From assembly GCA_964019415.1 (NCBI GenBank), contig OZ025877.1, positions 5,230,242 through 5,294,241 of the forward strand: a stretch of DNA of 64,000 nucleotides, in the 5' to 3' direction. The DNA is from Ianthella basta. Lineage: Eukaryota > Porifera > Demospongiae > Verongiida > Ianthellidae. This document shows, one piece after another, positions 3,111 to 62,204 of the stretch. The number at the start of each line of letters is the position of its first letter. Positions within the stretch are counted from its first letter, which is position 1. The position numbers were made by a program, and so were the translations under genes. The notes under the pieces were generated by a model, which had not been told where the DNA came from, searched no databases, and saw only the letters and a list, made by a program, of their open reading frames with translations.

Positions 3111-3941
3111 CAAAGACATCAACTGGGAGTGGATGGTAGCCACATCAGGCCGCAGCTGGTACTGGTTTTGCAAGCACCAAATGATGAGTGGCTTCATTGG
3201 ATGGCCACTGTCAAGCAAGTCAAGGTCCTTTCTTCGGCGCTCAACTTCTTGAGATGAACCAATATTGGTCATCCGTGCAGGAGGAGGTGTGCACGTGCTG
3301 AGTTCCAGCATCAGCACTCCCATGGAGAAGGAATCCACTTTGAGGTTGTAATGGGGCTCTTCCTTTAAAGCCTCTGGAGGCATGAAAACAAATGCACCTG
3401 GTGCCAAGGTCCCCATGTAATCACTGGACCCTGCCAGTAGCACTGACTGACCCAAATCCCCAATCTTTATAGACCCATCTTCGCCTACGAGAATATTCTT
3501 ATCATTGAGGTCACGATGAGCAATCGGTTGTTTCTGCCCATGTAGAAACTTCAAGCCTTCTGCAATGCTCAAAGAGATGCTCAAATGGTCCTCCACACAT
3601 ATCTTGTCCGCACCACGCTTCTTACGCTCTAGATACTCGCGTAGATTCTCCTTCATCGGCTCCATTAGCAGTAATGGCTCCTTGGTCGCGTTGTCCCAGA
3701 AGGCTCCGAGAGAGCGTACGATGTTCGGATGGCGCAGTGTCTCCAGTATCCGGCACTCCTTCTCAAAGTTTCGAAGCTGATCTGGGCTATTTGCTAACAG
3801 CACTGCGTGAATCCGCTTAATCATGACTGGATTCCCTTCGAGTTCGCCGAGACATACTGTCCCATACGAACCACGACCTTTCTCTTCTTTGATTACTAGC
3901 GAAGGTGGCTTCGGGCGGAAAACAGTTCCTGCGGTAGCCAT
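3111..3941 (-). CDS. RIP-like (TKL) protein kinase, first exon, gene A
   Basis: One exon of 831 bases (277 codons) from ATG at 3,941 to donor GTAAGT at 3,110, phase 0. It shows a complete kinase fold: glycine loop GRGSYGTV (about residues 22-29), VMIK lysine, NFEKE helix-C glutamate, HRDLNDKN catalytic loop, DLG in place of DFG (as in vertebrate RIPK1), PPEAL for APE, and [11 protein letters not shown] in lobe C. The HRDLNDKN loop has N where most Ser/Thr kinases have K. An upstream in-frame ATG at 3,980 would add 13 residues; I chose 3,941 because MAT is shared by all three copies. Two coiled-coil exons follow. The C-terminal half is the same in kinases A, B and C, suggesting strong constraint or gene conversion. 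Likely an active Ser/Thr kinase in a signalling scaffold; substrate unknown. Confidence 0.9.
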
Positions 3942-14070: not shown

Positions 14071-16589
14071 TCACTGGCTTGTCACCTTAGCTGGTTGCGA
14101 ATGCCTCCTCCATACCCTACCCACTGTCCTCTCAGCATCTGCAACTAGACTATCAAAGCCATCTTCAGTCATGGCTAAGAAGCGGACATCACTGAAGTAG
14201 TCGTTATTGGTAAAACTGAAGTGACTGATCACTCTGATGAACTCAGGTAAAATGGATCCCTTCTGGAAGCCACCTATAGAGAAGCTAAAAGGTGCTATAG
14301 CAACAGATGGCATCTCCAGTTTGTCTGCTTCCTGGCACACAGCATGCAAGATCTGCTGGAGGTACTTGTGACCATCTTGACGGGTCCCAAGGGAGCGGTC
14401 CAAGATGTTGGCAATGACCAGGTAGCGACAACCAATGGCAGCATGTTGAACATGAACAGTAAACACATCAAACTTGTCTGGCCTTTGGTACTGGTTCCTT
14501 CCTTTCACTGCCTCACTCAGTTGACCCTTCAAGTGGACATCCAGTTCCTTGTTACTGCCTGTTTGAAATCCCAGCTCACTGCAAATTGCAGCCACTTTGA
14601 TGTCAGCATCTTCATAAAAGAAGTGGGCCTTCTTGATACACATCTTGCGGTGGGACTTCTCCAAGGGGATGTCCACTACATCATCAGCACCTGCACGGTT
14701 TGTGGATGCATACTGATGCTTTTCTTTGCGACTGGCTTGACTTGAAGGTCTAACACTAGCAGGTCTGTGCTGAGTAAAAGGATCAGTGGCAGCAACACGT
14801 GAGTGAGATGTTGCATATTTGCCAGTTCTATTTGCAGATATGATCCTTCTGCGACCAGCAGGACCTGGTTGAGGGGGCTGCTGTAGTGCTTGGGAGATTT
14901 GTGTGTGCCGTGGTGGTTGCCTTAGTGATCTACCAACAGCTCTCTCAGCTCCTGCCAGAAGTACATTAAACATGCCAGCATCCATAGCCAGAAATCGTAC
15001 GTCAGTGAGGAAATCATCATTAGTGAACTTGTACTGGCTTAGCATGTGTATGAACTCAGGGAGAATAGACTCTGGCTGGAACGCACCAACGACAAATGTG
15101 TTGGGTGCTATGGCAACAGATGGCATCTCCAGTGTGTCTGCTTCCTGACACACAGCATGCAAGATCTGCTGGAGGTACTTGTGGCCATCTTGACTGGTCC
15201 CAAGGGAGCGGTCCAAGATGTTGGCAATGACCAGGTAACGACAACCAATGGCGGAATGTTGAACATGAACAGTAAACACATCAAACTTGTCTGGCTTGCG
15301 GTACTGGTACCTTCCCTTCACTGCCTCACTCAATTGACCCTTCAAGTGGCTATCCAGCTCCTTGTTGCGGCCTGTTTGAAATCCCAGCTCACTGCAAATA
15401 GCAGCCACTTTGATGTCAGCATCCTCATAGATGAAGTGAGCCTTCTTGACAACCATCTTGCAGTGGGTCTTCTCCAGGGGGATCTCCACTACATCAGGTG
15501 ACCCAGGGGGAGTGACAACAGGCTGCACTGCCCCAGGTGGCATGCCATTCTTTACTTCACTGGCAAACTGTAGAAAAGGTATGAGTGTCTCTTCATCAAA
15601 GAGGACAATACGGATATCTTTGAGAGTAGATGTGTGGTGGTATTGGTAGTATAGAATGGTGCTGATCAGGATCTGAGCCACCACATCTTTCTTCATGGCA
15701 TAAATGCCCGAACTAATGGCAGGAAGGGCAACTGATACCATTCCCAGTGCTTCAGCAGTGCGAAGGACATTCTCACACACCAGCTTCAAGAGCTGCTCAC
15801 ATTCCTTGTGAGGCCTAAAGTTAGCATCCGGACCCACAGCATGAATTACTCTCTGGCACTCCAGACTGCCTCCAGCTCCAGTCACAGCCACCTGCCCAGT
15901 TGGAACATGTCCTCTACTCTGTATTACCTTCCTTGACTCTCGCTGCACATTGCCCCTGCTGGCTCTACCTATGGCCAATGCTACTCCACCAATGTGGTCC
16001 AGCTTCTCATTGGCTGCATTGACAATGGCAGTCACCTTCTCTTTCAAAATGTCTCCCTTCTTCACTGTTAGCATCCCTCCATTGGACAGAGGCAGGGCTA
16101 CACCACTGGGGGCTGTATGCTGCGGATTAATGTGGGAAGGCCTGGGAAGCACAGCAGGCTGCTGTCTTCCTGAAGAATATGACATTATGTGTTGCTTAGC
16201 TCTCAAAAGCTTGGACTGCTCCAGTGCAAACAGCATCATAGACTGCTGTGCATACTGTGGTTGGCAAACAACCTCAGGATGTTGGTCTTCCACTTCAGAT
16301 AGGAGTAGAGCATACTGATCTTCAGAGAGCTTACTTTTAGTGAGAACAGTTTCTGTGATCATTTTCATGCCCATCACAATATCTTGGAACTTCATGAGGA
16401 ATGCATCACATGCTCGTTTAGCTGGCTCATCCTCGCCCACCACATTGACAGTGGTGAAGTCTTCACTGCATTTGATGTAGGTTGCATTAAGCAGTTTGAG
16501 ACGTTGCATTAGCTGAACTATTGGAGGGTGCATTCCAGGAAAGGTATCCACTACATGGCTGTCATTGCTGGGTACACTGGTCACATCTT
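14071..16589 (-). CDS. Macro domain plus two macro-like repeats, last exon of MGDSN gene
   Basis: One large exon. It starts at 16,589 after acceptor CTATGCAG, phase 1, and stops with TGA at 14,071-14,073 (about 839 codons). The N-terminal ~165 residues are helical/KH-like (TYIKCSEDFTTVNVVGEDEP), then comes a canonical macro domain (16,095-15,550) with KGDILKEKVTAIVNAAN, GGVALAI, VIHAVGPD and ALPAISSGIYAM, which keeps the ADP-ribose-binding loops. Two ~187-residue macro-like repeats follow (about 15,485-14,920 and 14,675-14,105). They share [36 protein letters not shown] and MPSVAIAP. The macro-plus-KH-like order recalls PARP14-type proteins, but no PARP catalytic domain is visible in the window. 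Probably reads, rather than writes, ADP-ribosylation. Confidence 0.88.
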
Positions 16590-20561: not shown

Positions 20562-20959
20562 AGCTGATTGCGCTTAGGCTGTGAGGACAAAGACTCATCA
20601 ATCTCCAAACAGAGGCAACTGTTTCCTGGAATCTGTTCGGGTAATCCCCTCCCACGTACAAATCACACATTTCCCACATGTTTGAGCAACGTGCCACGCC
20701 CTTTGTCACGGTAGCAAAATTATATTCCCCCAATTTAGATTCCCAGATAGAATAAACCAGGATCTTATGGGTCATGGCAGGTACAGTTATCCTCGTACCC
20801 AGACCCTTTCCATAATTTCGTGCCCCGCTAATTGTCCGCAGGCAGCATAGATATGAGGCTAGTAGCTAGGGCACAGCATCAATTAGCTATGCGACACCAT
20901 AATGGAAAAGGAGTGGCAGTTAGATATTGATAGATACTGGTGACGCTGCACCATTCAAA

Positions 20960-21330
20960 CATTGTAGCTACAACCATTTGAGCTTCGCTTTGAGCGTTGC
21001 AGATGACCTGACGTTTCTAGCCACACTGACAGATCATTGAGGCCCTCAATGATAAGAATGGCTAACTAGCTACTTAGAAGGCAAAGACGGGTCTGCAAAG
21101 ATTAGGAATTTTGTCAGTCATCGTTACTGACAGGTCCACAGACTATATACGGACCTTGGCACCAGGTGCATTTGTTTTCCTGCCTCCAGAAGCCTCACTA
21201 GCTAGCTACAACCCTCAAAGTGGATTCCTTCTCCATGCAAGTGCTTATACTGGAACTTAAAACACACACACCTCCGTTCCAGCACAGTTGAACTTAAAAC
21301 ACACACACCTCCGTTCCAGCACAGTTGAAC
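20960..21330 (+). pseudogene. Decayed RIP-like kinase fragment, copy 1
   Basis: Plus-strand remnants of the kinase seen at 3,111-3,941: SFALSVADDLTFL corresponds to the region before HRD; then a degraded GTCTGCAAAGATTAGGAATT (GS.KI.D.G) and GGCACCAGGTGCATTTGTTT (APGAFVF) follow with stops and frameshifts. It lies head-to-head with the MGDSN exon at 20,561, as the second copy does at 25,175-25,470. An ancestral divergent kinase/macro pair is the simplest reading. Confidence 0.65.
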
Positions 21331-25174: not shown

Positions 25175-25470
25175 AACCATTTGAGCTTCGCTTTGAACAT
25201 TGCAGAAGGCCTGCAGTTTCCAGCCACATTGACAGATCATCGAGGCCCTCGATGATGAGAATAGCTAGGTGAAAGCGAAGACGGGTCTGCAAAGATTAGG
25301 GATTTTGGTCAGTCATTGTTACTGCCAGTACACAGACTATATGAGGACATTGGCACCAGGTGCTTTTGTTTTCATGCCTCCAGAGCTTCACTACAACCCT
25401 CAAAGTATTCCTTCTCATGGGAATGCTTATGCTAGAACTTACAACATGCACACTTCCTCTGATCCAGCAC
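25175..25470 (+). pseudogene. Decayed RIP-like kinase fragment, copy 2
   Basis: Homologous to 20,960-21,330 and to the kinase exons, with recognisable KIRDFGQS-like and [14 protein letters not shown] stretches in changing frames. Head-to-head with the MGDSN exon at 24,852. Too short and too broken to be active. Confidence 0.65.
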
Positions 25471-31907: not shown

Positions 31908-32735
31908 CAAAGACATCAACTGGGAGTGGATGGTAGCGACATCAGGCCGCAGCTGGTACTGGTTTTGCAAGCACCAAATGATGAGTGGCTTCATTGGGTG
32001 GCCACTGTCAAGCAAGTCAAGGTCCTTTCTTCGCCGCTCAACTTCTTGAGATGAACCAATATTGGTCATCCGTGCAGGAGGAGGTGTGCATGTGCTGAGT
32101 TCCAGCATCAGCACTCCCATGGAGAAAGAGTCCACTTTGAGGTTGTAGTGAGGCTCTTCCTTTAAGGCCTCTGGAGGCATGAAAACAAATGCACCTGGTG
32201 CCAAGGTCCCCATGTAATCACTGGACCCTGCCAGTAGCACTGACTGACCCAAATCCCCAATCTTTATAGACCCATCTTCGCCTACGAGAATATTCTTATC
32301 ATTGAGGTCACGATGAGCAATCGGTTGTTTCTGCCCATGTAGAAACTTCAGACCTTCTGCAATGCTCAAAGAAATGCTCAAATGGTCCTCCACACATATC
32401 TTGTCCGCACCACGCTTCTTACGCTCTAGATACTCGCGTAGATTCTCCTTCATCGGCTCCATTAGTAGCAATGGCTCCTTGGTCGCGTTGTCCCAGAAGG
32501 CTCCGAGAGAACGTACGATGTTCGGATGGTGCAGTGTCTCCAGTATCTGGCACTCCTTCTCAAAGTTTCGAAGTTGATCTTGGCTATTTGCCAACAGCAC
32601 TGCGTGAATCCGCTTGATCATGACTGGCTTCCCTTCGAGTTCGCCGAGACATACTGTCCCATACGAACCACGACCTTTCTCTTCTTTGATTACTAGCGAA
32701 GGTGGCCTCGGACGGAAAACAGCTGCGGTAGCCAT
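31908..32735 (-). CDS. RIP-like (TKL) protein kinase, first exon, gene B
   Basis: 828 bases, 276 codons, from ATG at 32,735 to donor GTAAGT. It differs from kinase A mainly in the N-lobe (one residue shorter: [40 protein letters not shown]). From VEDHLSISL to the exon end I see no amino-acid difference between A, B and C. All catalytic residues listed for A are present. The upstream flank is shared with A, not with C. Continues into coiled-coil exons 31,370 to 26,342. Confidence 0.9.
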
Positions 32736-47110: not shown

Positions 47111-47849
47111 TCAGTGTATGGGGCAAAGGTGTTGCTGAGCTATCTAGTCTGCAGCGTTGCTAATGCTTCTCATATTCGGTTGGGTTCACCATAATGTACA
47201 CACGCACGCGCAGATATCTATGGCAGGTCACCTGGAAAATCTCACTCGCAAGCAAGTTATTGCAAAATTCGCAACTTTTAAATGAAAAGAGAATAACTCT
47301 GCAATAAAAAGGAAATGGAGGTGGCCTCCGTATAGATTTGTGCACACATGCATGGAGACTGTGCATGGCATGCAAGTTTGGTTCTTCTCAGCTATTCAGG
47401 GCACAACTAGCTAGATATAGAGTTTCCCTGAAGCTACTTGACCCCCCAAAAGGCAAAAATGTTTCACTTTCAATCAGAATATCTCAATAAGGGAAGTGAC
47501 AATCAATTAATTATGCACAACAAATTGCAGGAAATTTACTTAATAATATTATTTACACTTGAAAAAATCAACACATTTGGTTGTAATATAATGGAGTTAC
47601 ATATATAGGCAAAGCAATGTACCCCAAAGGAAGCTTTTAGCCTTCCCTACTGCCTAAACTTTATTGTATAGCTACTGATAGTGTTAAAATCATATATTAA
47701 GTACATGGTACTAATAATAAGTCATAAATATTGTAAGTGATTCCTCGGGTAATTACAAAATGTAACCAAATGCAAACTGTTACATTGGAGTGTGGAGTAC
47801 TCGGTCATTCTAGACCTCTAGGTCAGGTGTTCTTTCACAAGACCAAAAA
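47111..47849. other. 3' flank of gene C, no gene seen
   Basis: AT-rich sequence between the LINE fragment and the TAA of gene C at 47,850. Probably includes the 3' UTR and polyadenylation region of that gene; no specific site is claimed. Confidence 0.5.
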
Positions 47850-50800
47850 TTATGGTGAGTCAGAAGGAGTTGCAAATCTATCATTGCCACTAGCACTCTT
47901 CTGCATCTGATGGCCATGGGTTGGCATATCTTCACCTTGATTAGTGGCATCTCCAACAATGCTCCTGAAAGCTCTCAAAGTAGCCTCATCATTCTCCTTG
48001 ACCACTACAGTAACATTCACATTGTACCGAGGGTTCTGTGGGCGGAAGGAGGCAAAAGCTCCCATCATAGCTCCAGCTAGCTTGCTTTTAGCTTTGTTGG
48101 ATGCAATGGGTGGAAAGGCTACTGAATGGGCACCAAGATCTTCTGCCAACTTGAGAGCTTCACGACAGGCTTGGTCAAGAGTCAAAGAAGGAGCTTTAGG
48201 GTTACGAACCAGCAAAATGACATGTTTACAGCTCAGACCAATCCGGGATATCTCCACTGGTATTGCAGTGCCTACAGCAACTATCTGCCTAGTCTGTTTT
48301 AATTGGCTGACTGCACGACTGATTGCTCCATTGCTGGCTGCATCTACTGATTGCACCACACCGAACTTCACATCCAGTGACGGAGAAACAGGTACAACAA
48401 CAGCATCAGCTTGTACTCTGCGCAGATCATCACATGCAAGGGCAAAGAACACATGACCTGAGAGCTTGGTCATCCCAGGTCCAGGAGTGGGATGTTGTAT
48501 GTCCTTTGATGAGTCCATGCCACTGGCTGGGAGGTCGTCTGAAGTACTACCCACTGCTGGGGTTAGTGCTTGTGGTGATGGGGAATAGCTGGGCTGTGGA
48601 CGATCCAAGTTTAAGGTTGATTGGCATGCCACCTTAGCTGGTAGTGAAGGTCTCCTCAATGACTTGCCCACTGTCCTCTCAGCATCTGCAACAAGGCAGT
48701 CAAAGCCATCATGAGTTGCTAAAAAACGCACATCCTTGAAGAAGTCATCATTAGTAAACCTGAAGTTACTGATCACTCTGATAAACTCAGGTAGAATGGT
48801 TCCTTCCTGGAAGCCACCAATGAAGAAGCTATTGGGTGCTATGGCAACAGACGGCATCTCCAGTGTGTCTGCTTCCTGGCACACAGCATGCAAGATCTGC
48901 TGGAGGTACTTGTGACCATCTTGACAGGTCCCAAGGGAGCAGTCCAAGATATTGGCAATGACAATGTACCGGCAACTGATGAAGGGACTTTGAACATGAA
49001 CAGTAAACACATCAAATTTATCCGGTCTTCGATGTTGGTATCTTTCCTGCACTACTTTACTCAGTTGACCTTTCAAGCGGCCATCCAGTTCATTATTAAT
49101 ACCTGTTTGAAATCCCATTTCACTGCAAATGGCAGCCACTTTGATGTCGGCATCCTCATAGATGAAGTGAGCCTTTTTGACAACCATCTTGCGGTGGGTC
49201 TTCTCCAAGGGGATCTTAACCACAACACCTGTTAGAATAGATGTGCCTGTGGGGGAGGCAGTTGAGCGATATACTGAGTGTACTGGGCCAGGCAAGGTAG
49301 CAGGTTGCCTGTCATGTGTCACCTCATCTGTATTGTGGGGTTGGCTTAGACCACTTCTCTTACTGGCAGCAGTTCCAGTGGACAATGCAAGGTTGACATT
49401 CTTAATAATTCCTTCAGCATACATCAGAAAAGGTGACAGTGTTTCATTGTCACTAATTACAATGCTAATGTCCTTGATAGGAGAATTCACAATGTATGGG
49501 TAGTGGAGAACAGAATCAATGAGAACCTGAGCAACCACTTCTTTGGACATTCCATAGTAGCCCAAGCCAATGGGAGGTATAGCTATGGATACTATTCCTT
49601 TCTCTTCAGCTGCATTAAGTATTTGCTGACACAGCTTTTCCAGATGTCTCTCATCCCCTTCATTGGTCCTCTCCCAGGCAGTAGGCCAAACAACATGAAT
49701 CACATGCTTGCACTTCAAACAGCCACCAGCCCCAGTCACCACCACTCTCCCTGACTGTGCACTACCTCCCATCCTCTGAACAACGTCCTTCAGTGCTACT
49801 AGCACAGCTCCCTCACTGGCTTCATTAATAGCCTTTGCCACACCTGAGCTGTGCTGGAGGTGCTCATTTGTTGAATTCACAATAGCCTCAACCGCCTCCT
49901 TCACTACATCACCTTTCTTGACGGTCAAGTTGCGTTCTTGGTGGAAAGGAATGCTAACAGATGGTACAAGGTGAGTGCTGACTGAACCAGTGGTTGAAGC
50001 TCCAACACCATGTACTGTCTGGTGTGCCTCAACCTTGAATGTGTGTGTTGTGGGAGCTTGCACACGAGAAACATCACCATGTTCCTGGATGCCCTGTTTA
50101 TTGGCAGCAGATGAATCTGTCTTATGCAAGTGGCTGCCTTCAAAGTGGGAGCTCTGCAATGGTTTCCTGAGGGACTTTCCGCTATGCCGTTCTGCTCCAG
50201 ATACCAGGGAGTTGAAGCTGTGGAGATCCAATGCAAGGAAGCGGATATCAGTGAGAAATTCATCATTTGTGAATTTAAAGTGATTGATCATTCGGATAAA
50301 TGCAGGAAGAGTGGACTCAAGCTGGAAACCACCAATGGAAAATGTGCTTGGTGCTACAGCAACAGATGGCATCTCCAGTGTGTCTGCTTCCTGACACACA
50401 GCATGCAAGATCTGCTGGAGGTACTTGTGACCATCTTGACGGGTCCCAAGGGAGCGGTCCAAGATGTTGGCAATGACCAGGTAACGACAACCAAGGGCAG
50501 CATGTTGAACATGAATGGTAAACACATCAAACTTGTCTGGCTTGTGGTGCTTGTACCTTCCCTTCACTGCCTCACTCAGTTGACCCTTCAAATGGACATC
50601 CAGCTCCTTGTTGTGGCCTGTTTGAAATCCCAGCTCACTGCAAATGGCAGCCACTTTGATGTCAGCATCCTCATAGATGAAATGAGCCTTCTTGACAACT
50701 ATCTTGCGGTGGGTCTTCTCCAAGGGGATCTCAACCATATCATCAGCACCTGCAAGGTTTGTGGATGCATGCTGATGCTTTTCTTCATGACTTGAGGGCC

Positions 50801-51658
50801 GAACACTAACAGGTTGGAACTGACTAGTAGGATCAGTGGCAGCAGCACCTGGGCGAGATGTTGCATCCCTGCCAGTCTCATTTGCTGACATGCTCCTTCT
50901 GCCACCAGCAGGAACTGGTTGATGGGACTGCTGTGGTGCTTGGGAGACTTGTGTGTGCCATGTTGGCTGTCTTATGGATCTACCAACAGCCCTCTCAGCT
51001 CCTGCCAGCAGTGTGTCAAACATGCCAGCATCTAAAGCCAGAAATCGTACATCAGTGACGAAAACATCATTTGTGAACTTGAACTGGCTTAGCATGTGTA
51101 TGAAGATGGGGAGAACAGATTCAGGCTGGAACTCGCCAACGACAAAAGTGTTGGGTGCTATGGCAACCGATGGCATCTCCAGTGTGTCTGCTTCCTGACA
51201 CACAGCTTGCAAGATCTGCTGGAGGTACTTGTGACCATCTTGACGGGTCCCAAGGGAGCGGTCCAAGATGTTGGCAATGATCAGGTAACGACAACCAATG
51301 GCAGCATGTTGAACATGAACAGTAAACACATCAAACTTGTCTGGCTTGCGTTTCTTGTACCTTCCCTTCACTGCCTCACTCAGTTGACCCTTCAAGAGGC
51401 CATCCAGCTCCTTGTTGCGGCCTGTTTGAAATCCCAGCTCACTGCAAATAGCAGCCACTTTGATGTCAACATCCTCATAGATGAAGTGAGCCTTCTTGAC
51501 AACCATCTTGCGATGAGTCTTCTCCAAGGGGATTGCAACAACCTCAGGTGACCTGGTAGCAGGGATGAGTCCTTGTTTCAACTGAATTGCTGAAGGCTGC
51601 AGTGCTGGTAAGGCATCAACTGCGAGACTATGACCTTCATGAATGCTGACCCCATCAT
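47850..51658 (-). CDS. Three macro-like repeats and two macro domains, last exon of gene C
   Basis: 3,809 bases from acceptor CTTTGTAG (phase 1) to TAA at 47,850. Order: macro-like repeat 1 (51,540-50,975), repeat 2 (50,735-50,170), macro domain 1 (49,945-49,400; [39 protein letters not shown]), repeat 3 (49,235-48,655), and a divergent C-terminal macro domain 2 (48,475-47,950; [45 protein letters not shown]). In macro 1 NAAN has become NSTN and GGGV is SSGV; in macro 2 the NAA motif is replaced. Both may bind ADP-ribose weakly or not at all, unlike the macros of the other two genes. Linkers are Pro/Ser/Gln rich. Confidence 0.9.
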
Positions 51659-54600
51659 CTACAAAGTGTTAACATAAACAGTTGGTGATCCTTACAACAG
51701 TGTTTCTGTCGTGATAGAGTAAGTACATTTGTATGTATGCAATCATTATAAGAGTACAAATTACTTGCAGCCAAAGAACATGTTATCAAGGGCAATTTTG
51801 TTCATGCACAAACAAGAAATAGGATGACTACTACATATTGCAAGCAAACCTAAGAAATTACACTGTCAATATACAAACATGGCAGACTCAATACTTGCTG
51901 CTGGTTGTAAGGAAGAGATGGGCTAGTTAATGAGCCGGAAGAGCATGTCTTATAATGTGATGAAACTGCTGGTGTAATCAGGCAAAACAACTGACCCAAT
52001 AATGGCATGCTTACAGTAGCAACACAGAGAACATCAACAACATAGTATTATAGTAATTAGATACGTACTTTTACTTATAGGACACCAGTGAACACAAGAT
52101 TGTCTAGTGCAGAACAAAATGTTAGCATCATATCAGTGCTCATTGAGTGAATGATGGAAGAGATGGACTACCACAGTCAATTAAAATCAACAAACTTGTG
52201 CAACTAGAACAGAATATAAACCAACAGACTGACCATGCATTGTTCTGAAGCCACCATTTTTAATTAATTGAGCCTGCACACTAACTGAATAATGAAATCA
52301 TTCACTCACTTTCATTTGTCTTGTCCATTTCAGCACAGTCCTCCTCTATAGTCTTAACCACTGAGGAAACTGAAAAAACAGCAGTTTTGATACTATCCAG
52401 GAACTTGGGCACATCTTGCAGTCTCCTCAGCGAGTCCCTTACACATTTTGCTTTTGCCTGTACAAAGCAAGGTCCCTTTTTGTAAGTACGCAAAAGTCTT
52501 TAAGGACATACATAGATTGAGATAAAAGGGTGAAGGCCACAGTTGAAATTCTTGTATGCAAATGGGATAAAGAGAAAACAAGCACCATATTAGAAGCACC
52601 AGTGTTCTTACAGAATGAAAGGCCATGAGGATGTTGCAATACAGTCAAGGAATTGCACAAGCCAAAGTGCATTGAGTGGCCATGGCTTTATTGCATTATC
52701 CATGCAAACGTAAGGTGCTAACTATTCAACCAATCAAATGCATTCAGCAGGAATTCCTGCTAATAGTATTTATTGGCTGTGGGAGCTTCAGTTATGCATG
52801 AGCGGCCTGTTTGAGTGTACATGACCCTGGCCTATGTGATTGGAGAGGGCTTAAGGCCCAGCTATCCCCCTTTGTTCCCTCCATTGCTGCTCTTGGATTC
52901 TCTTACTAAAGAAGAAGCAGCCATTAGTGGAAAGGGTTGTAGTGGGCTTGACAGGGAATTCATTTGTTTGGAACTTGAAAGAATGCACGAGCAGTGAAAA
53001 CCTTAGCAGTTCTAGCAATGTACGCTTCCTTGTTTCAATGTCATTAGTTGCTTTCTGAAGGTTAAACACAATTAGATAGCAAGAATGACACAGGCTACTG
53101 CCTTTCTTAGTGAGGCACAGCTGGGTATACAGCTGTCACAAGTGCTCCTCCCACTTAGCGGTCAGCCTACCCGCCTTCATCAACTTGCATGTAGCAGTAC
53201 AGTGCTGCGTTACTGTGTTTGTGCACATGAGCATACATGTTGTGACGTTCTATGATGTAAGTAAATTGTTATAATAATGAGTCTCCACCACATGTGTAAG
53301 TAAGAGGTATGCTGCATGATGGTAGACCAATTCTGATCGCGTACAAAGTAGCAGCACCATGAGTTGTAACAAGATGCGCCAACCATCATGTACGTAACTA
53401 CATTGGTAGTTACATGTACTTCTGTTCCAGGCTTGGTAGCAACAAATGTAAAAGCACTTGTACTGTACTATCTCACTTGACATTAGGTCCGCACCAACTC
53501 TGCATCTAGGGTATCGCTTATCAATGTTGATAATGTGAAGGTGTCAGTGCTGTATCTAGAAAATTGTTTGAGGGGGCCACAAAACTGAGGCTCCAAGAAT
53601 TAAGAGGAGGGGACACCATGTTAACAAATGGCTTGCCAAATTTCAAAGGGGGGGGCAAATTTATGGCAAAGGGGGGGGGGGGCAAATGCTCTAGACACCC
53701 CCCTCTAAATGCACCCTGTGTGTGATCTAATCAATACTGCCACTGGAGTATTCCTTAGATGGAACAGTCTCACAAACCAGACAACAACTAGGGCAATGAA
53801 TACTGGTTTGAAACAGGGTACCATTAGAAGTTTGCCAACACACCAACCGGATGCTCTGGTCTTCCTCCAGCTAAATGCCATCCCAGTGCAAACTTTGTCG
53901 TAGCCTAGTGTGTTGCTTCCTTCCTTTCACTTAGCCATCCAGATGTATACAGTATTATCATGCAATTTTATGATGCCAGGTGTATATCCAACCTACCTCA
54001 TTCTCTGATTTCAGTGCTGCAATCTCTTTGTCCTTTTCACTCAGTTGTCTTTCTAGTTCCTTCTGCAATGCTTGCTTGTCAGCCTGGAAATTGATAGAGT
54101 ACATAAGTGAAGACATCACTGAGGTTCCATCAGCCCTTCTCCTAGTAATGATGCGGGAAGTATACAGACCATACCATACATACACGTATATCTCTGTGCA
54201 CAACAAGGGCTGCAACTTACTAGATGTGCACGTTTGGAACCAAAGAATACTCTAAAAGTGTTCTTTGTAATTCATGCTGTGACTTAAGTAAACATGTGCC
54301 TAAGACTACAGGACAAGGTGCCATATGATTCGAGGCAATACCTTTACAATAACAGCACTTACCAATACTCTCTCTTTCTCCCTTAGCTGCACCATCAGTT
54401 GTGATTCACGATCACGGGAGGACGTGAGCTGCCTTTGCAGCTGTATATTCTCATTCCTGTATCGCTCCACAGTACGAGACTGCTCCTAAAAGGACAAGAA
54501 AATGGTCGTGTTGTTATACGGGAACTCACAAGCTAAAGTGAATAACATGCAAACTACACGCTAGCAACACTACACTGAAGCAGGGATACAGAATTATCAC

Positions 54601-57600
54601 TCATTTCTATGCACAGTAGGTACATAAATATATTATATGTTGGGAAAATGGTATTTCTTGTGCTCTTCATTTTTTAAGTTTCATTTCTGGATGACAACAT
54701 GACAGCAACAAGTTCCAGTGAGATCATGACAACAGCTAGTAAGCATCCATTCATTTTAATAATGCAAAGCAGATGAAGAAGAAGGCTTCAGTTATTTCCT
54801 CTCATAAGCTTCTTTGCTTGCTGAAGAAATTATATACCTCCTTGAGATAAACAGCCAAGCAGGAGGTTACTAAAGTATTGAATATCATTAATCTCCTCAC
54901 TCCAATTTAGTGTCTTCAAAAGCAAATACTACATTCGATTAAAACATGTATACTACCCCTTTGATGCAACTAGTCTGATGTGTTGTGGAGCACATGTATA
55001 GGCCAAAACACTGAACAACCATCCCGAGCAAGCATAGTATGACTCTTCCACTAATATTTGGCATAGGTCTGCAGGCCTGCACTTGGCATCACAGCCAAAT
55101 CATAGCAAAATCACAGATGTTCTGATGGATGAAAAGCAATGCTTGAATAGCCAGAGAGTAGCAAGGTCAGCGCTCTGTGAAGCTCCATCTACAAGATGTA
55201 GTGACTGTATGTTAGCTGTGTTGTGTTACCTGTAGTGCTGCATGGTTTCCCTAGGGTCTTGTATTATCATTTGGTTTTGCCTGCCTTCTGCATGGATGTA
55301 GCTTTTGATTGGTTATGTATCATGTGACTTGTATGGAGCACATGTGCCTTGTTCTGGTGTAATTGGTGTGGAACCACGTGCGAGTGACCATTAGCGTCCG
55401 CAGTTGTGCGTGCTTGGATTGTGCCAGCGACCTCGATATTGGCGACGAAGGTAAAGCGACAACAGACAATGGCCACTCATGGAAGCATCAGTGAGTTCCA
55501 GGGTAACCCAGAGGGGTGGACAGAGTACATCGAGCGTCTGGAGTGTTACGTCACCGCCAACGACATTGCTACCAACGAGAAAAGGAGAGCAATCTTCCTT
55601 GCTTGTTGTGGTGACACCACTTACAGCATAATACGTAGTCTGGCGGCTCCAAGGAAGCCAACGGAGATCCCATACAATGACTTGGTGAAATTAGCTCAGG
55701 CTCACTACAACCCCAGACCATCTCAGATCGTCCAGCGGTTGAAGTTCAACTCGAGGACACAGCAAGCAGGTGAGAGCATTGCTAGCTATGTTGCCAAACT
55801 CCGCCGACTCTCTGAACATTGTGAGTGTGGACCACTACCAACGATTGCCGTTTGGAGTTGCCTCAGCTCCCGCCATCTTTCAACGAACTGTGGAGTCGGT
55901 GCTACAAGGCCTCACTAACATATGTGTGTACCTGGATGATATACTCGTCTCAGGCAGGTCAGTGCAGGAGCACCTGGTGAACCTTGAGGAGGTCCTCAAA
56001 AGACTGGAAGACGCAGGGCTGAGACTTAAGAAAGATAAGTGCTCCTTTCTGATGCCAGAGGTGGAGTACTTAGGTCACCAGATCAGCAAGGAAGGCCTTC
56101 AACCCACCGAGGCCAAGGTATGGGCTGTGGCAGAAGCCCCGGAGCCCCAGCAAGTGGATGAACTGAGATCTTTCCTGGGCTTGGTAAATTATTACGGCAA
56201 GTTCTTGCCCAGCCTGACTTCCACAGCGGCCCCACTGTATCGTCTGCTCCAAAAGAAGGCCCACTGGGTTTGGGGGAAGGACTAGAGTACTGCTTTCGAG
56301 GAGGTGAAGAAATTGCTTCAGTCAGCAGACCTGTTAGTATAACACTTCGACCCCCAGAAACAGCCGGTGTTGGCTTGTGATGCGTCACCTTATGGGTTAG
56401 GGGCAGTTCTGTCTCATGTCATGGAAGATGGCACTGAGAAACCCATCGCCTTTGCCTCACGCACCCTAGCTCCACCTGAGAAGAGGTAGTCCCAGCTAGA
56501 TAAGGAAGCCCTAGCCATCATATTCGGGGTTAAGCAATTTCACCAATACCTCTATGGACGCCACTTCATCATCCACTCGGACCACAAGCCCCTGATGTTT
56601 ATCTTCAATGAGTTGAAAGCAATCCCGGCAATGGCATCAGCAAGAATCCAGAGATGGGCCCTCACCCTGAGCGGATATTCTTACACCATTCGATACAAAG
56701 TAGGGAAGGAGCATGCCAACGCCGACACCCTTAGCCGACTACCGTTAGCAGAGGTGCCAATTGAGGTACCTCGGCCAGCAGTGACCATCTTCTTGATGGA
56801 GCACCTGGCAGCCTCCCCAGTATCAGCAGCTAACATACGCTCCCAGACTGACAGAGACCCGACGCTGTCCAAGGTGAGACAGTTCATGACATGTGGGTGG
56901 CCTACACTTCCGGTCACATTCCCAGAGATGCAACCATTCAATCAACGACGTGAGGAGCTGAGTGTGGAAGATGGCTGCCTGCTGAGGGGAAGTAGAGTCA
57001 TTGTGCCACCAAGTCTTCGGAGCAAAGTCCTAGATCAGTTGCATGATGGTCACCCAGGCATTGGAAAAATGAAGGCCCTGGCCCGCCAGTATGTGTGGTG
57101 GCCTGGACTGGATGGAGATCTGAAGGGGCAAGTGGAGAAATGTGTTCCCTGCCAACCATAAGAGCCCGCCATCAGCACCATTACACCCTTGGGAGTTACC
57201 CCAAAAGCCCTGGGTGCAGGTGCATGCTAACTACGCAGGACCATTTCTGGGGCACATGTTTCTGATCTTGATAGATGCTCACTCTAAGTGGCTAGAGGTT
57301 CACATGACCAACTCCTCAACTTCATCGGCAACTATAGAATAGATGAGAAGCAGCTTTGCGACTTTGGGTCTTCCTGAGCAATTGGTCACAGACAACGGAC
57401 CATCCTTCACCAGTGAAGAGTTTGCTCTGTTTTTGCAGATGAATGGGATTAAGCACATCACAACCGCCCCATACCACCCGGGATCTAATGGGCTGGCAGA
57501 GCGGGCTGTACAGACGCTTAAGTCAGGACTGAAGAAGATCGCAGAAGGCAGTTTGGCTAACCGCCTGTCTAGATTCCTCCTGAGCTACCGAACTACGCCT

Positions 57601-60600
57601 CACTCAACAACGGGAGGGACACCCTCAGAGCTAATGTTTGGTCATCAGTTGCGGACACGTATGGATCTGCTGAAACCAGACATTGGCAGAAGGGTACGCT
57701 TCGATCAGGATCAGCAGAAGCAGGGGCATGATGCCCATGCAAGACCCAGAGAGTTCGCGGTGGGCACTAGAGTGTATGCCAAGAACTTTGGTAGAGGGTC
57801 CCCTTGGCTGCCCGGATTGGTTCAAGAGGCGAAGAGGCCAGTTTCCTACACTGTAGAGTTGGAGGACGGCCGGGTTGTCCACAGACATGTAGACCATGTA
57901 CGTGTCCATACACCCACAGATGGTGTACCACCAGAGGCTGACGAGCCTGATGACTTTTTCCGGTCGACATTTCAACTCCAAGCTCTGATCTGCCAGTGGC
58001 TCCGGCAGGCCCTTCCGCAGGTCCTCGGCGTTCCTCCCATCCCCGCCACCCTCCAGATCGTCTCGTATTCTGGGGTGCCAATTGACTAAAGGGGAGGGGT
58101 GTAGTGACTGTATGTTAGCTGTGTTGTGTTACCTGTAGTGCTGCATGGTTTCCCTAGGGTCTTGTATTATCATTTGGTTTTGCCTGCCTTCTGCATGGAT
58201 GTAGCTTTTGATTGGTTATGTATCATGTGACTTGTATGGAGCACATGTGCCTTGTTCTGGTGTATTTGGTGTGGAACCACGTGCGAGTGACCATTAGCGT
58301 CCGCAGTTGTGTGTGCTTAGATTGTGCCAGCGACCTCGATACAAGACTTCTGTGATTTCACACAACATAGCATGTTGAGAAACAATTGGACCATCATTCC
58401 ATCTCAGCAGCACAGGAGATCATGAACAAGGTGTCAAAAATAAGTCTGTTTATTGCCCAGGTAGCAGCCAACAGCTAGCAGACCACGTCTGTAGCTGCCC
58501 CAATTGCTGCACAGAATGTTTCCAACCAGTAAGGCCTCTCATGGCTACCAATGTTCCTAGCTACCAAGGGAGACGTGGCGACTGACGTGTTCTACTGGAA
58601 AGGAAGCGACTATTTCCTGGAAGCTGACAATAAAGGGTCAAACAATTATCACATGTCAATGTGAACCATTTGTTGTTTGCAATGAATGAATGTTCAAATA
58701 ATTTGTTCCACCGGCAGAGATAGTTGAATATGCAGGTCAGTTATGTAGTGAATACTGGAATTAAGAGGAGAAAGTCAGAGGAGGAGTGGGATGGGTAAAT
58801 ATGACCGGAGGAAAGCACTTTGTAGTCATCACCCCATAATCCTTGAGGGTTATGAGGTGTTTCGTTCCAAACAAATAAACTGATTCATGAACAAAATGAA
58901 GTATTGTGACATCTGAGGCCATTGTATGACGTTATAGGCTCACAAAAATATTCAAACAAATTATTATTCAATACATGGCTAACAAACAAATATTTGACTA
59001 CTCAGTTATTCGCTTGACCCTTACTGTTAATCTAAAAATTACATTGAAATTGCTTGCCTGCCAAAGAAACCGCCAGTGAAGCCATTCACCTACTGACAAT
59101 CATTCTTGCAAACACACAAGATACCTCGAAAGGTCAAATCTAACAAAGGACCACATTTTGCAGCTTTGGAGTTAGCCAAGTTTGCTAGAGCTTATGACTT
59201 TCTACTCCATTGAAGAATATGGCTACAGTCTAGTAAAGCACAAACATTCTTTTGATCTATGCCACAGGGCTCATAGCCTGGATAGCTGGATGACAGAAGA
59301 TCTCGTCTGGGTTTCCCAGAGCCAGACCAAGGGAATGGTGCTCACAGAGGTGCTACCAAGGACATAACAGGTGATAGCCTAAAGTCGGGTTCTCACAAAA
59401 AAAAACACCAGTAATCGAAATTGCTCCTTCTGCCCCCAATACCAGAGTGAAGAAGATCTACACCTCTAGATGATCCATGTCACCAGCACCTCTCAAGTAA
59501 GGTCTGCAGCATAAACAGAACAGTCTCAGTGTTTGGTGCAAGGATAATGGTTACATCTTAATTGCACTTAATAATAATAAATGATTGAAACAAACAAATC
59601 AAATGGTGCAATCAAATCTTTGGCTACTGCCTTCTGGGAGAACTCCCAGTAATAGTAAAACAGTTTGCAAGTGTAAGATAGGTAAACACTGAAGAGATTG
59701 GACAGTGAAGTGTAGTTATGTTTGTGAGTAGTAATTCAATAGAACCTCCCAGCAACTCTGACACAATATTCTTTAGATAAATTATGCATACATACGTAGC
59801 TGTGCATGAGCACACTCCATAGTGTGCATTGATCTAGTAACAGATAGTTAGGTGCTTTAATTTGTTTATCAGTAGTGCGGTAGGATTAATTAGCCACCTG
59901 GTTTGTACTATTGCATGTGTCCTTGTTCTTTCTTTTTACAATTTATTTAAAATTTTAATTCAACTTCACTTAATTTCAGAAGCAAAAAATTCAATACATA
60001 CTGTAGTTGATATTGGTATTTTGTAACTTACTTCGAGGTCCGCCTCTCTTCCAGTTAGTTTCTCTTTTGTTTCCTCCAATTCAGCCTACATTTAGAAGAA
60101 TAGCAGGAAACTGACACATAAACAAGACAGCAATACACACTTGCAGCATAAGCCCCACACAGTGTCACATCAGTGAATGTTGCTATCCTAACCATGTGAT
60201 TTACCATGCAAGAGGATACATCGCATTCGCACAGTGAAATACGTAATTAAACAACTTCACTACTTGAAACCAAATGCCAGTAACAATTCAGGTAAGGCAT
60301 GAAAAGCTACCAAGAACATGTACTGTACATATATTTTCAAATTTTAGAGTGGACACTCTACACATAAGTACTGTATGCAAAATTAAGTAAAGATAGGTAC
60401 TGGACTAGTGTGGTCTCTAGGGTACTAGGCACCTAACAAATGTGCCAGTAAACCAGCAAACAAAACATTCCTTAACAGTAGATTTATGCACATAAACAAC
60501 TGTAATCCGTCATTCAGTTGGTCAACAGGATAAGGGCAATGCTGAACTCTGCTAGTACTCATATAAGTGTGGGATCCGGGAATGTAGGTGCATGGTAAAT

Positions 60601-62204
60601 GTGCACGTTGCGCACACACACACACATACACACGTGCACACACATACACGCATACAGACATTACATGAGCCTAACAACTAGAAAGGAGTTATCTGCATAC
60701 CCGCAGGTTCCTTTTGTCGTCCTTGAGAGCATGCAAATCTTTGTCTGACTTATGTAGTGCATCTTCTAGCTGCAACGACTGTGCCTCTGCTAGTTCCAGT
60801 CTTGTCTCCAGTTGTTCAACTTTCCTCCGGAGCTCAGGATGTTTCTGAAACATAACACAAGTAATGACAACACAACAAATGTGAAAGCCACATGAAATAA
60901 CTGTACAACAAATATGACATAACAGCCAAGCTTCATATTTAGAATCTGCTTATGACAACACAAGGCTGCGATCCCCATGCCATTTATGAGAAGTCATCAC
61001 ATTCACAATTCAGTCTGAACCTCAGCAACCCCATCTCTCTCGCAGCAACTTTTTCGCAGCTTTTTTAGCACCACTCCACATCATTCAGCTGGAGGAAGAA
61101 GTAGTGCTCTTTCTCTTGGACATCACTACTACAGCAGGAACTCTAATTAGTCACCATTCGTTACGCTGTGATCAAATCATACCCCAGCTTGCACCTCAGA
61201 TGTTGAATTGTTACAATTTGTGCAGAAGCCAGACACAGCATCAATTCAGACTGGTGTCTATTAAAGAAGAGCTGCTCTGACCTGGGACTTTATTTGAGCC
61301 CAGCCTCTACTTGAGCTGGCTTCTATACAGACATATTCAGTACAGGCACACACAATCTTAAGCATAAACTTACCAAAGACATCAACTGGGAGTGGATGGT
61401 AGCCACATCAGGCCGCAGCTGGTACTGGTTTTGCAAGCACCAAATGATGAGTGGCTTCATTGGGTGGCCACTGTCAAGCAAGTCAAGGTCCTTTCTTCGC
61501 CGCTCAACTTCTTGAGATGAACCAATATTGGTCATCCGTGCAGGAGGAGGTGTGCACGTGCTGAGTTCCAGCATCAGCACTCCCATGGAGAAGGAATCCA
61601 CTTTGAGGTTGTAGTGAGGCTCTTCCTTTAAGGCCTCTGGAGGCATGAAAACAAATGCACCTGGTGCCAAGGTCCCCATGTAATCACTGGACCCTGCCAG
61701 TAGCACTGACTGACCCAAATCCCCAATCTTTATAGATCCATCTTCGCCTACGAGAATATTCTTATCATTGAGGTCACGATGAGCAATCGGTTGTTTCTGC
61801 CCATGTAGAAACTTCAAGCCTTCTGCAATGCTCAAAGATATGCTCAAATGGTCCTCCACGGATATCTTGTCGGCACCACGCTTCTTACGCTCTAGATACT
61901 CGCGTAGATTCTCTTTCATCGGCTCCATTAGCAGCAATGGCTCCTTGGTCGTTTTCTCCCAGAAGGCTCCGAGAGAGCGTACGATGTTCGGATGGCGCAG
62001 TGTCTCCAGTATCTGGCACTCCTTCTCAAAGTTACGAAGCTGATCTGGGCTATTTGCCAATAGCACTGCGTGAATCCGCTTGATCATGACTGGCTTCCCT
62101 TCCAGTTCGCCGAGACATACTGTCCCATACGAACCACGACCTTTCTCTTCTTTGATTACTAGCGAAGGTGGCTTCGGAAGGAAAACAGTACCTGTTGTAG
62201 CCAT
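47850..62204 (-). CDS. Gene C: RIP-like kinase - coiled coil - macro fusion gene (model)
   Basis: Seven exons: 62,204-61,374 (kinase, 831), 60,844-60,701 (144), 60,085-60,032 (54), 54,485-54,363 (123), 54,083-53,997 (87), 52,457-52,310 (148), 51,658-47,850. The first five junctions are phase 0 and the last phase 1: ..ACAAATGAAA joins ATGATGGGG to read N-D-G. The predicted product is about 1,730 residues: kinase (1-277), five coiled-coil blocks (to about 462), then macro-like and macro modules. The 5.5-kb intron between exons 3 and 4 holds the LTR retrotransposon. No stop interrupts the join. RNA evidence is not available here, so separate transcripts remain possible, but the phase match across all six introns is strong support. 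Confidence 0.72.
52310..54485 (-). CDS. Coiled-coil exons 4 to 6 of gene C
   Basis: 54,485-54,363 ([20 protein letters not shown]), 54,083-53,997 ([20 protein letters not shown]) and 52,457-52,310 ([20 protein letters not shown]). GT-AG junctions, lengths 123, 87 and 148 bases, identical to gene B. The intron between exons 5 and 6 (52,458-53,996) includes an open stretch at 52,851-53,069 and a G-rich low-complexity tract (about 53,649-53,692) but no convincing exon. Confidence 0.8.
53649..53692. repeat. G-rich low-complexity tract
   Basis: Runs of eight and more than ten guanines separated by CAAATTTATGGCAAA, inside an intron of gene C. G-quadruplex formation is possible. Confidence 0.7.
55197..55438 (+). 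mobile_element. 5' LTR
   Basis: 242 bases, starting TGTAGTGACTG and ending CGATA. Confidence 0.92.
55469..55918 (+). pseudogene. gag: gag, truncated
   Basis: ATG at 55,469. Typical Gypsy gag with [17 protein letters not shown] near the start, [20 protein letters not shown] and [13 protein letters not shown]. After LSEHCECG the gag sequence stops matching the family, and the next frame is already RT; the remaining gag-frame codons to 55,918 are out-of-frame RT sequence. No CCHC knuckle is present. Confidence 0.85.
55830..58089 (+). pseudogene. pol: pol remnant: RT C-half, RNase H, integrase
   Basis: RT begins at [16 protein letters not shown] (about 55,835) with the YLDD active site. RNase H includes [15 protein letters not shown] and HSDHKPL. 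Integrase has an HHCC finger (H..H...C..C at about 57,036-57,156), the DDE second D in [10 protein letters not shown] and E in [11 protein letters not shown], and a C-terminal GPY/F-like segment. Defects: in-frame stops near 56,284, 56,339, 56,487 and 57,340, a frameshift near 57,160, and N in place of the first integrase D (HANYAGPF). Clearly inactive. Confidence 0.88.
58100..58341 (+). mobile_element. 3' LTR
   Basis: 242 bases, same ends as the 5' LTR. Differs at GTATTT/GTAATT, GTGTGTGC/GTGCGTGC and CTTAG/CTTGG. Confidence 0.92.
58626..59032. repeat. Imperfect long-TIR fold-back element (copy C)
   Basis: Third copy of the repeat at 514-920, nearly identical to it. Confidence 0.4.
60032..60844 (-). 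CDS. Coiled-coil exons 2 and 3 of gene C
   Basis: 60,844-60,701 ([20 protein letters not shown], last codon CGG where A and B have CAG) and 60,085-60,032 ([18 protein letters not shown]). Phase 0. Compared with gene A, the intron has an extra ~165 bases (about 60,500-60,662) with a CA-rich microsatellite right after exon 2. Confidence 0.8.
60612..60655. repeat. CA-rich microsatellite
   Basis: Interrupted (CA)n within an insertion absent from genes A and B. Confidence 0.7.
60950..61337. mobile_element. Truncated TIR element in kinase intron 1 (copy C)
   Basis: Same family and place as 2,675-3,080. Confidence 0.5.
61374..62204 (-). CDS. RIP-like (TKL) protein kinase, first exon, gene C
   Basis: 831 bases, 277 codons, start [14 protein letters not shown]. 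It differs from A/B at [11 protein letters not shown] (A/B GAFWDNATKEP) and ISVEDHL (A/B ICVEDHL). All catalytic motifs are as in kinase A ([26 protein letters not shown]). An upstream in-frame ATG at 62,261 is not shared with A or B. Homology to A and B ends a few bases upstream of the ATG, so C has a different promoter. Confidence 0.9.

Follow-up and report, generated by a model that had tools for sequence, protein, structure and literature searches.

Phosphorylation and ADP-ribosylation, to our knowledge, mostly meet through separate proteins. The macro fold is known for handling ADP-ribose, some macro domains being ADP-ribose hydrolases, and the macro-PARPs PARP9, PARP14 and PARP15 carry several macro domains in tandem. 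In the RIP kinases (RIPK1-7), a kinase is followed by a distinct non-kinase region, and a death domain, CARD or ankyrin repeats are found outside the kinase. The TRIM proteins are reportedly an immune expansion with a constant N-terminus, there of RING/B-box type, and a variable C-terminus. The Amphimedon TRADD-N expansions are described as joining a constant signalling N-terminus to many C-terminal parts, and the same source describes, in cnidarians, fusions of TRADD-N with Macro and PARP (PMC8195603).

The locus studied here, from the sponge Ianthella basta, shares the constant-N/variable-C plan of the TRADD-N expansions, with a kinase as the constant part (where TRIM proteins have RING/B-box) and a coil in some members. 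It was found in a window of 64,000 nucleotides (the whole stretch of DNA that was analysed), which lies within a tandem array (C10:5.22-5.34 Mb) of a genome searched over 209 Mb and 96 contigs. We lean slightly towards a reading in which the tandem units each hold one gene, transcribed whole, for a sensor kinase composed of a TKL kinase, a coil and a macro-fold array.

In one stretch of the window, hereafter unit A, seven exons could be joined with all phases matching into 5196 nt (1731 codons plus the stop) with zero internal stops, in line with the product of about 1,730 residues estimated in the first-pass annotation. The junction phases were also as it had claimed, five 0/0 and then 1/1 (0, 0, 0, 0, 0, 1), and all six introns are GT-AG. 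The parts of unit A are:

61374..62204, minus strand: exon 1, start codon and whole kinase domain, 277 aa (exon join, Pfam, motifs)
60701..60844, minus strand: exon 2, coil, phase 0/0 (kept in units B and C)
60032..60085, minus strand: exon 3, coil, phase 0/0 (exon join, unit comparison)
55197..58341, no strand assigned: LTR retroelement within intron 3, outside the product (242-bp LTRs, 98.8% identical)
54363..54485, minus strand: exon 4, coil (exon join, unit comparison)
53997..54083, minus strand: exon 5, coil (exon join, unit comparison)
52310..52457, minus strand: exon 6, end of the coil, phase-1 donor (exon join, unit comparison)
47850..51658, minus strand: exon 7, domains R1-R2-M1-R3-M2, phase-1 acceptor, stop at 47850 (exon join, Pfam)
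47660..47665, minus strand: AATAAA about 185 nt past the stop (poly(A) signal)

A 53-nt exon-like remnant in intron 5 (53054-53002, minus strand) was dropped, since including it would disrupt the frame and unit C no longer has the donor. Rfam gave no match at gathering scores over the 64-kb window.

The product of exon 1 matched PK_Tyr_Ser-Thr (PF07714) at residues 17-274 with 129.3 bits and PF00069 with 122.4 bits, and its kinase motifs are intact (GRGSYG, K42, HRD at 142-144, DLG at 162-164). The best solved chains were CTR1 and TNNI3K, with JAK2 and WNK close behind; from these matches and Pfam, and not from a tree, we assign it to the TKL group of protein kinases. The label "RIPK1-type" given to it at first found no support. 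DLG, which we take to be the RIPK1 motif, is present in all three units (A, B and C) as well as in one C11 kinase, but P0060 and P0062, both close relatives, carry DFG, as do the C9 kinases. Among 1116 solved sequences, the 60 best matches included no RIPK; JAK2 entries predominate in that list. Unlike the RIP kinases, the unit A chain had no Pfam match to a death domain, CARD or ankyrin in either part at E values up to 1. Coiled-coil families matched residues 285-419, all below the Pfam cut-offs. The whole-segment score for a heptad pattern in residues 278-420 was reached by 0 of 1000 shuffles, and the best-28-residue score by 145 of 1000.

Macro (PF01661) was matched in two stretches of exon 7 (113 bits, Pfam), and five domains could be delineated there:

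50961..51530, minus strand: R1, divergent macro fold (modelled)
50160..50735, minus strand: R2, putative macro fold, 79% identity to R1 (sequence)
49401..49940, minus strand: M1, macro domain, nearest solved sequences PARP14 and PARP9 (Pfam, solved-sequence comparison)
48648..49223, minus strand: R3, putative macro fold, 73% identity to R1 (sequence)
47946..48470, minus strand: M2, weak macro domain, 30 bits in the genome scan (profile scan)

Of the architecture first proposed, the kinase, the three macro-like repeats and the two macro domains stood, and the coiled coils were matched by families only below the cut-offs. Pairwise identity among R1, R2 and R3 is 73-79%; the three had no match in Pfam, and their profile had none among solved sequences. 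The R1 model resembles the macro folds of PARP14 and PARP9, and the R repeats are predicted to belong to the macro fold, R1 from its model and R2 and R3 from their identity to R1. All 16 R matches of this genome fall inside the array (C10:5.220-5.340 Mb). The likeness to macro-PARPs extends from the tandem arrangement to M1 by sequence and to R1 by modelled fold; the chain differs in carrying an N-terminal kinase and coil in place of a PARP catalytic domain, for which no match (PF00644) was found in exon 7 or in the C10:5.2-5.3 Mb array. ADP-ribose binding by the R repeats is doubtful, because they presumably lack the NAAN-type pocket motif. The array could instead serve as eraser or scaffold, hydrolysing ADP-ribose under regulation by the kinase, with the flow running from kinase to macro. 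M1, closest to the macro domains of PARP14 and PARP9, also matches the glycohydrolase AF1521, as such a role would predict; we nevertheless consider it quite improbable, since three of the five domains (the R repeats) seem to lack the usual pocket motif and related kinase exons are paired with other C-termini elsewhere.

A fit can be forced when exons are chosen by eye, and the copies of the array therefore serve as the test. Two further units were recognized on the same strand, B and C, whose kinase exons are 96% and 97% identical to that of unit A in protein:

31908..32735, minus strand: unit B exon 1 (kinase)
31370-31227, 30000-29947, 28104-27982, 27697-27611 and 26489-26342, minus strand: unit B exons 2-6
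14071..16589, minus strand: type-2 macro exon (N-terminal region, macro, R, R), joining unit B exon 6 in phase 1
3111..3941, minus strand: unit C exon 1 (kinase)
2576-2433 and 1979-1926, minus strand: unit C exons 2 and 3
left of the window, within C10:5219684-5226612: unit C exons 4-7

Unit C, completed from the 12.5 kb left of the window, is whole, with seven exons, of which exons 1-6 match those of unit A in length and phase; its product has 1735 aa with no stop. Unit B exons 1-6 and the type-2 macro exon give 1300 aa in phase. Two kinase pieces between unit B and the type-2 exon (25175-25459 and 20932-21291, both plus strand) have decayed and contain frame shifts and stops. Incomplete macro/R copies were also observed at 38680-36518 and 8917-7689 (both minus strand), with stops within the R matches, and no kinase exon of their own was found for either.

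Between units A and C, exons 1-6 have zero gaps, and introns 1 to 6 have 13, 162, 14, 0, 125 and 208 nt of gaps. Nucleotide identity does not set the exons apart (91.9-98.9% for exons 1-6, 93.7-97.8% for introns, with intron 3 overall at 97.8%); plain identity is uninformative, and the signal for selection sits in the synonymous excess. For the kinase, dN/dS was 0.119 (8 N, 19 S; synonymous excess P = 2e-7), and for coil exons 2-6 it was 0.156 (9 N, 15 S; P = 2e-5), pointing to purifying selection on both. The unit B coil gave 0.41 against A and 0.40 against C. In exon 7, identity between A and C is 88.8%, below that of the introns (93.7-97.8%), with dN/dS at 0.505, and the four linkers gave 1.43, 2.63, 1.04 and 0.96, from few changes. 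Exon 7 thus appears to have been exchanged between copies, or to be diversifying.

That exon 7 evolves differently from exons 1-6 would also be expected if the locus held two adjacent genes, one for kinase and coil and one for macro domains, duplicated jointly and not spliced to each other. A type-2 macro gene on the plus strand (L067, C10:5336-5340 kb) fits this as well, with no kinase or coil exon found in the approximately 9.9 kb upstream. In unit C, the open frame continues past the exon 7 acceptor to an upstream ATG in frame (compare P0003), and an ATG in frame likewise precedes the acceptor of the type-2 exon of unit B; a separate macro start may exist in these two. In unit A, however, the open frame begins just 10 nt before exon 7 and the first Met lies inside R1, where the database call P0001 begins, which makes it hard for this exon to form a gene by itself. 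The first-pass annotation had named a distinct promoter and start codon just upstream of 51658 as evidence against the fusion, and no in-frame start codon was found there. It had likewise named transcripts ending before 52,310; when AATAAA and ATTAAA were sought, the sole poly(A)-like word in intron 6 of unit A was one ATTAAA, which is missing from intron 6 of unit C, whose ATTAAA sits in exon 6. Further against two genes, the donor and acceptor phases agree in A, B and C, the joined coil is free of stops, and intron 6 is short (651 nt in A, 857 nt in C). We therefore judge two genes improbable.

Additional support comes from a second assembly, in which the kinases P0060 and P0062 (83% and 82% identical) are listed with a longest contig of 1,814,862 bp, and the macro proteins P0007, P0017, P0020 and P0022 with the same longest-contig figure. 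All six would share one contig, judging only from this equal figure. In general, the single-chain fusion is well supported, at the level of predicted genes, by tandem units C and B and the second-assembly matches.

The 5' flank of unit A is homologous to those of B and C only in the last 10 bases before the start codon, and the flanks of B and C have about 1.7 kb in common at 93%. Since the homology stops at 10 bp, unit A is perhaps promoterless or silent, and it may have lost its promoter. Units C and B would then be live, and A a duplicate that is unexpressed or only recently dead. We regard this as rather unlikely, given that every frame and splice site is kept in A together with a poly(A) signal, that dN/dS between A and C is low in kinase and coil, and that a new promoter is possible.

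A kinase and Macro in one protein were sought among database relatives using precomputed Pfam assignments and were found in none of 57 matches; two further searches gave 0 of the 120 matches listed of 752 and 0 of the 120 listed of 267. A spliced fusion could be missed in these searches, because the nearest database relatives are open frames without introns. In the literature, no kinase-macro fusion was named in the titles or abstract openings searched.

Unit A, from the exon arrangements in this genome, belongs to a large kinase family whose C-termini differ. Related kinase matches were scored for the best 140 of 749 candidates. On contig C11, at least 22 of the 36 listed kinase exons have an NHL exon no more than 8 kb downstream and ahead of the next kinase, a lower bound with the best 150 of 1198 NHL matches scored. 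The opposite-strand control gave 0 of 36. An NHL exon also lies upstream of 22 of the 36, because the C11 arrays are tandem. These neighbours share a related kinase exon with unit A and differ in the C-terminal module. On contig C9, a single locus (L069 66-3579, plus strand) encodes kinase, coil and a PARP catalytic domain (PF00644, 35.3 bits, cut-off 26.7) in 590 aa, with phases 0, 0, 1. It has a related kinase exon, coil exons and phases 0, 0, 1 in common with unit A; its C-terminal module is different and its kinase is 54% identical to that of unit A. The ends found on more distantly related database kinases are ankyrin, NHL, filamin-NHL and Kelch (P0116, P0131, P0029 and P0177). The constant-N/variable-C layout is thus seen in many tandem copies, with NHL, PARP (one locus) and macro ends.

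The sequence shows the anatomy of unit A: a chain of exons that is conserved in unit C, purifying selection on kinase and coil, a predicted macro fold for R1 and intact kinase motifs. The steps of function that we infer from it for a sensor kinase are as follows. The exon chain would be transcribed as a single mRNA, and the macro array would bind ADP-ribose or ADP-ribosylated partners. The coil would build dimers or larger assemblies, and binding would cluster the kinases, leading to mutual phosphorylation and to phosphorylation of downstream proteins. Phosphorylation would in this way be coupled to ADP-ribose. By analogy, the role would probably lie in innate immunity, given that in other parts of the genome related kinase exons are followed by C-terminal modules of other kinds. 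More tentatively, the family may consist of modular sensor kinases in which one front end is spliced to a PARP writer (C9), up to five macro folds (C10), NHL or other ends, with ADP-ribosylation both read and written by kinases, probably in defence. If true, a kinase with five macro folds, beside a kinase-PARP, would tie both modifications together in one molecule. The unit A product would offer a candidate, open to direct testing, for kinase signalling under ADP-ribose control, and a kinase-based example would be added to the invertebrate pattern of one constant signalling end with many sensors.

Several other arrangements were observed. Tandem kinase-then-NHL exons are present at C11:0.2-1.1 Mb of the same genome. 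In another assembly, the single open frame of P0027 holds TRAF-type zinc fingers followed by two R domains, with a coil-like stretch, seen by eye, in between. Two more PARP-like exons lie on C9 (7898 and 7906 kb), for which no link to a kinase was found, and near the PARP-like exons of this contig is a NADAR domain (132.5 bits, L073 5058-5708, minus strand), another family linked to ADP-ribose.
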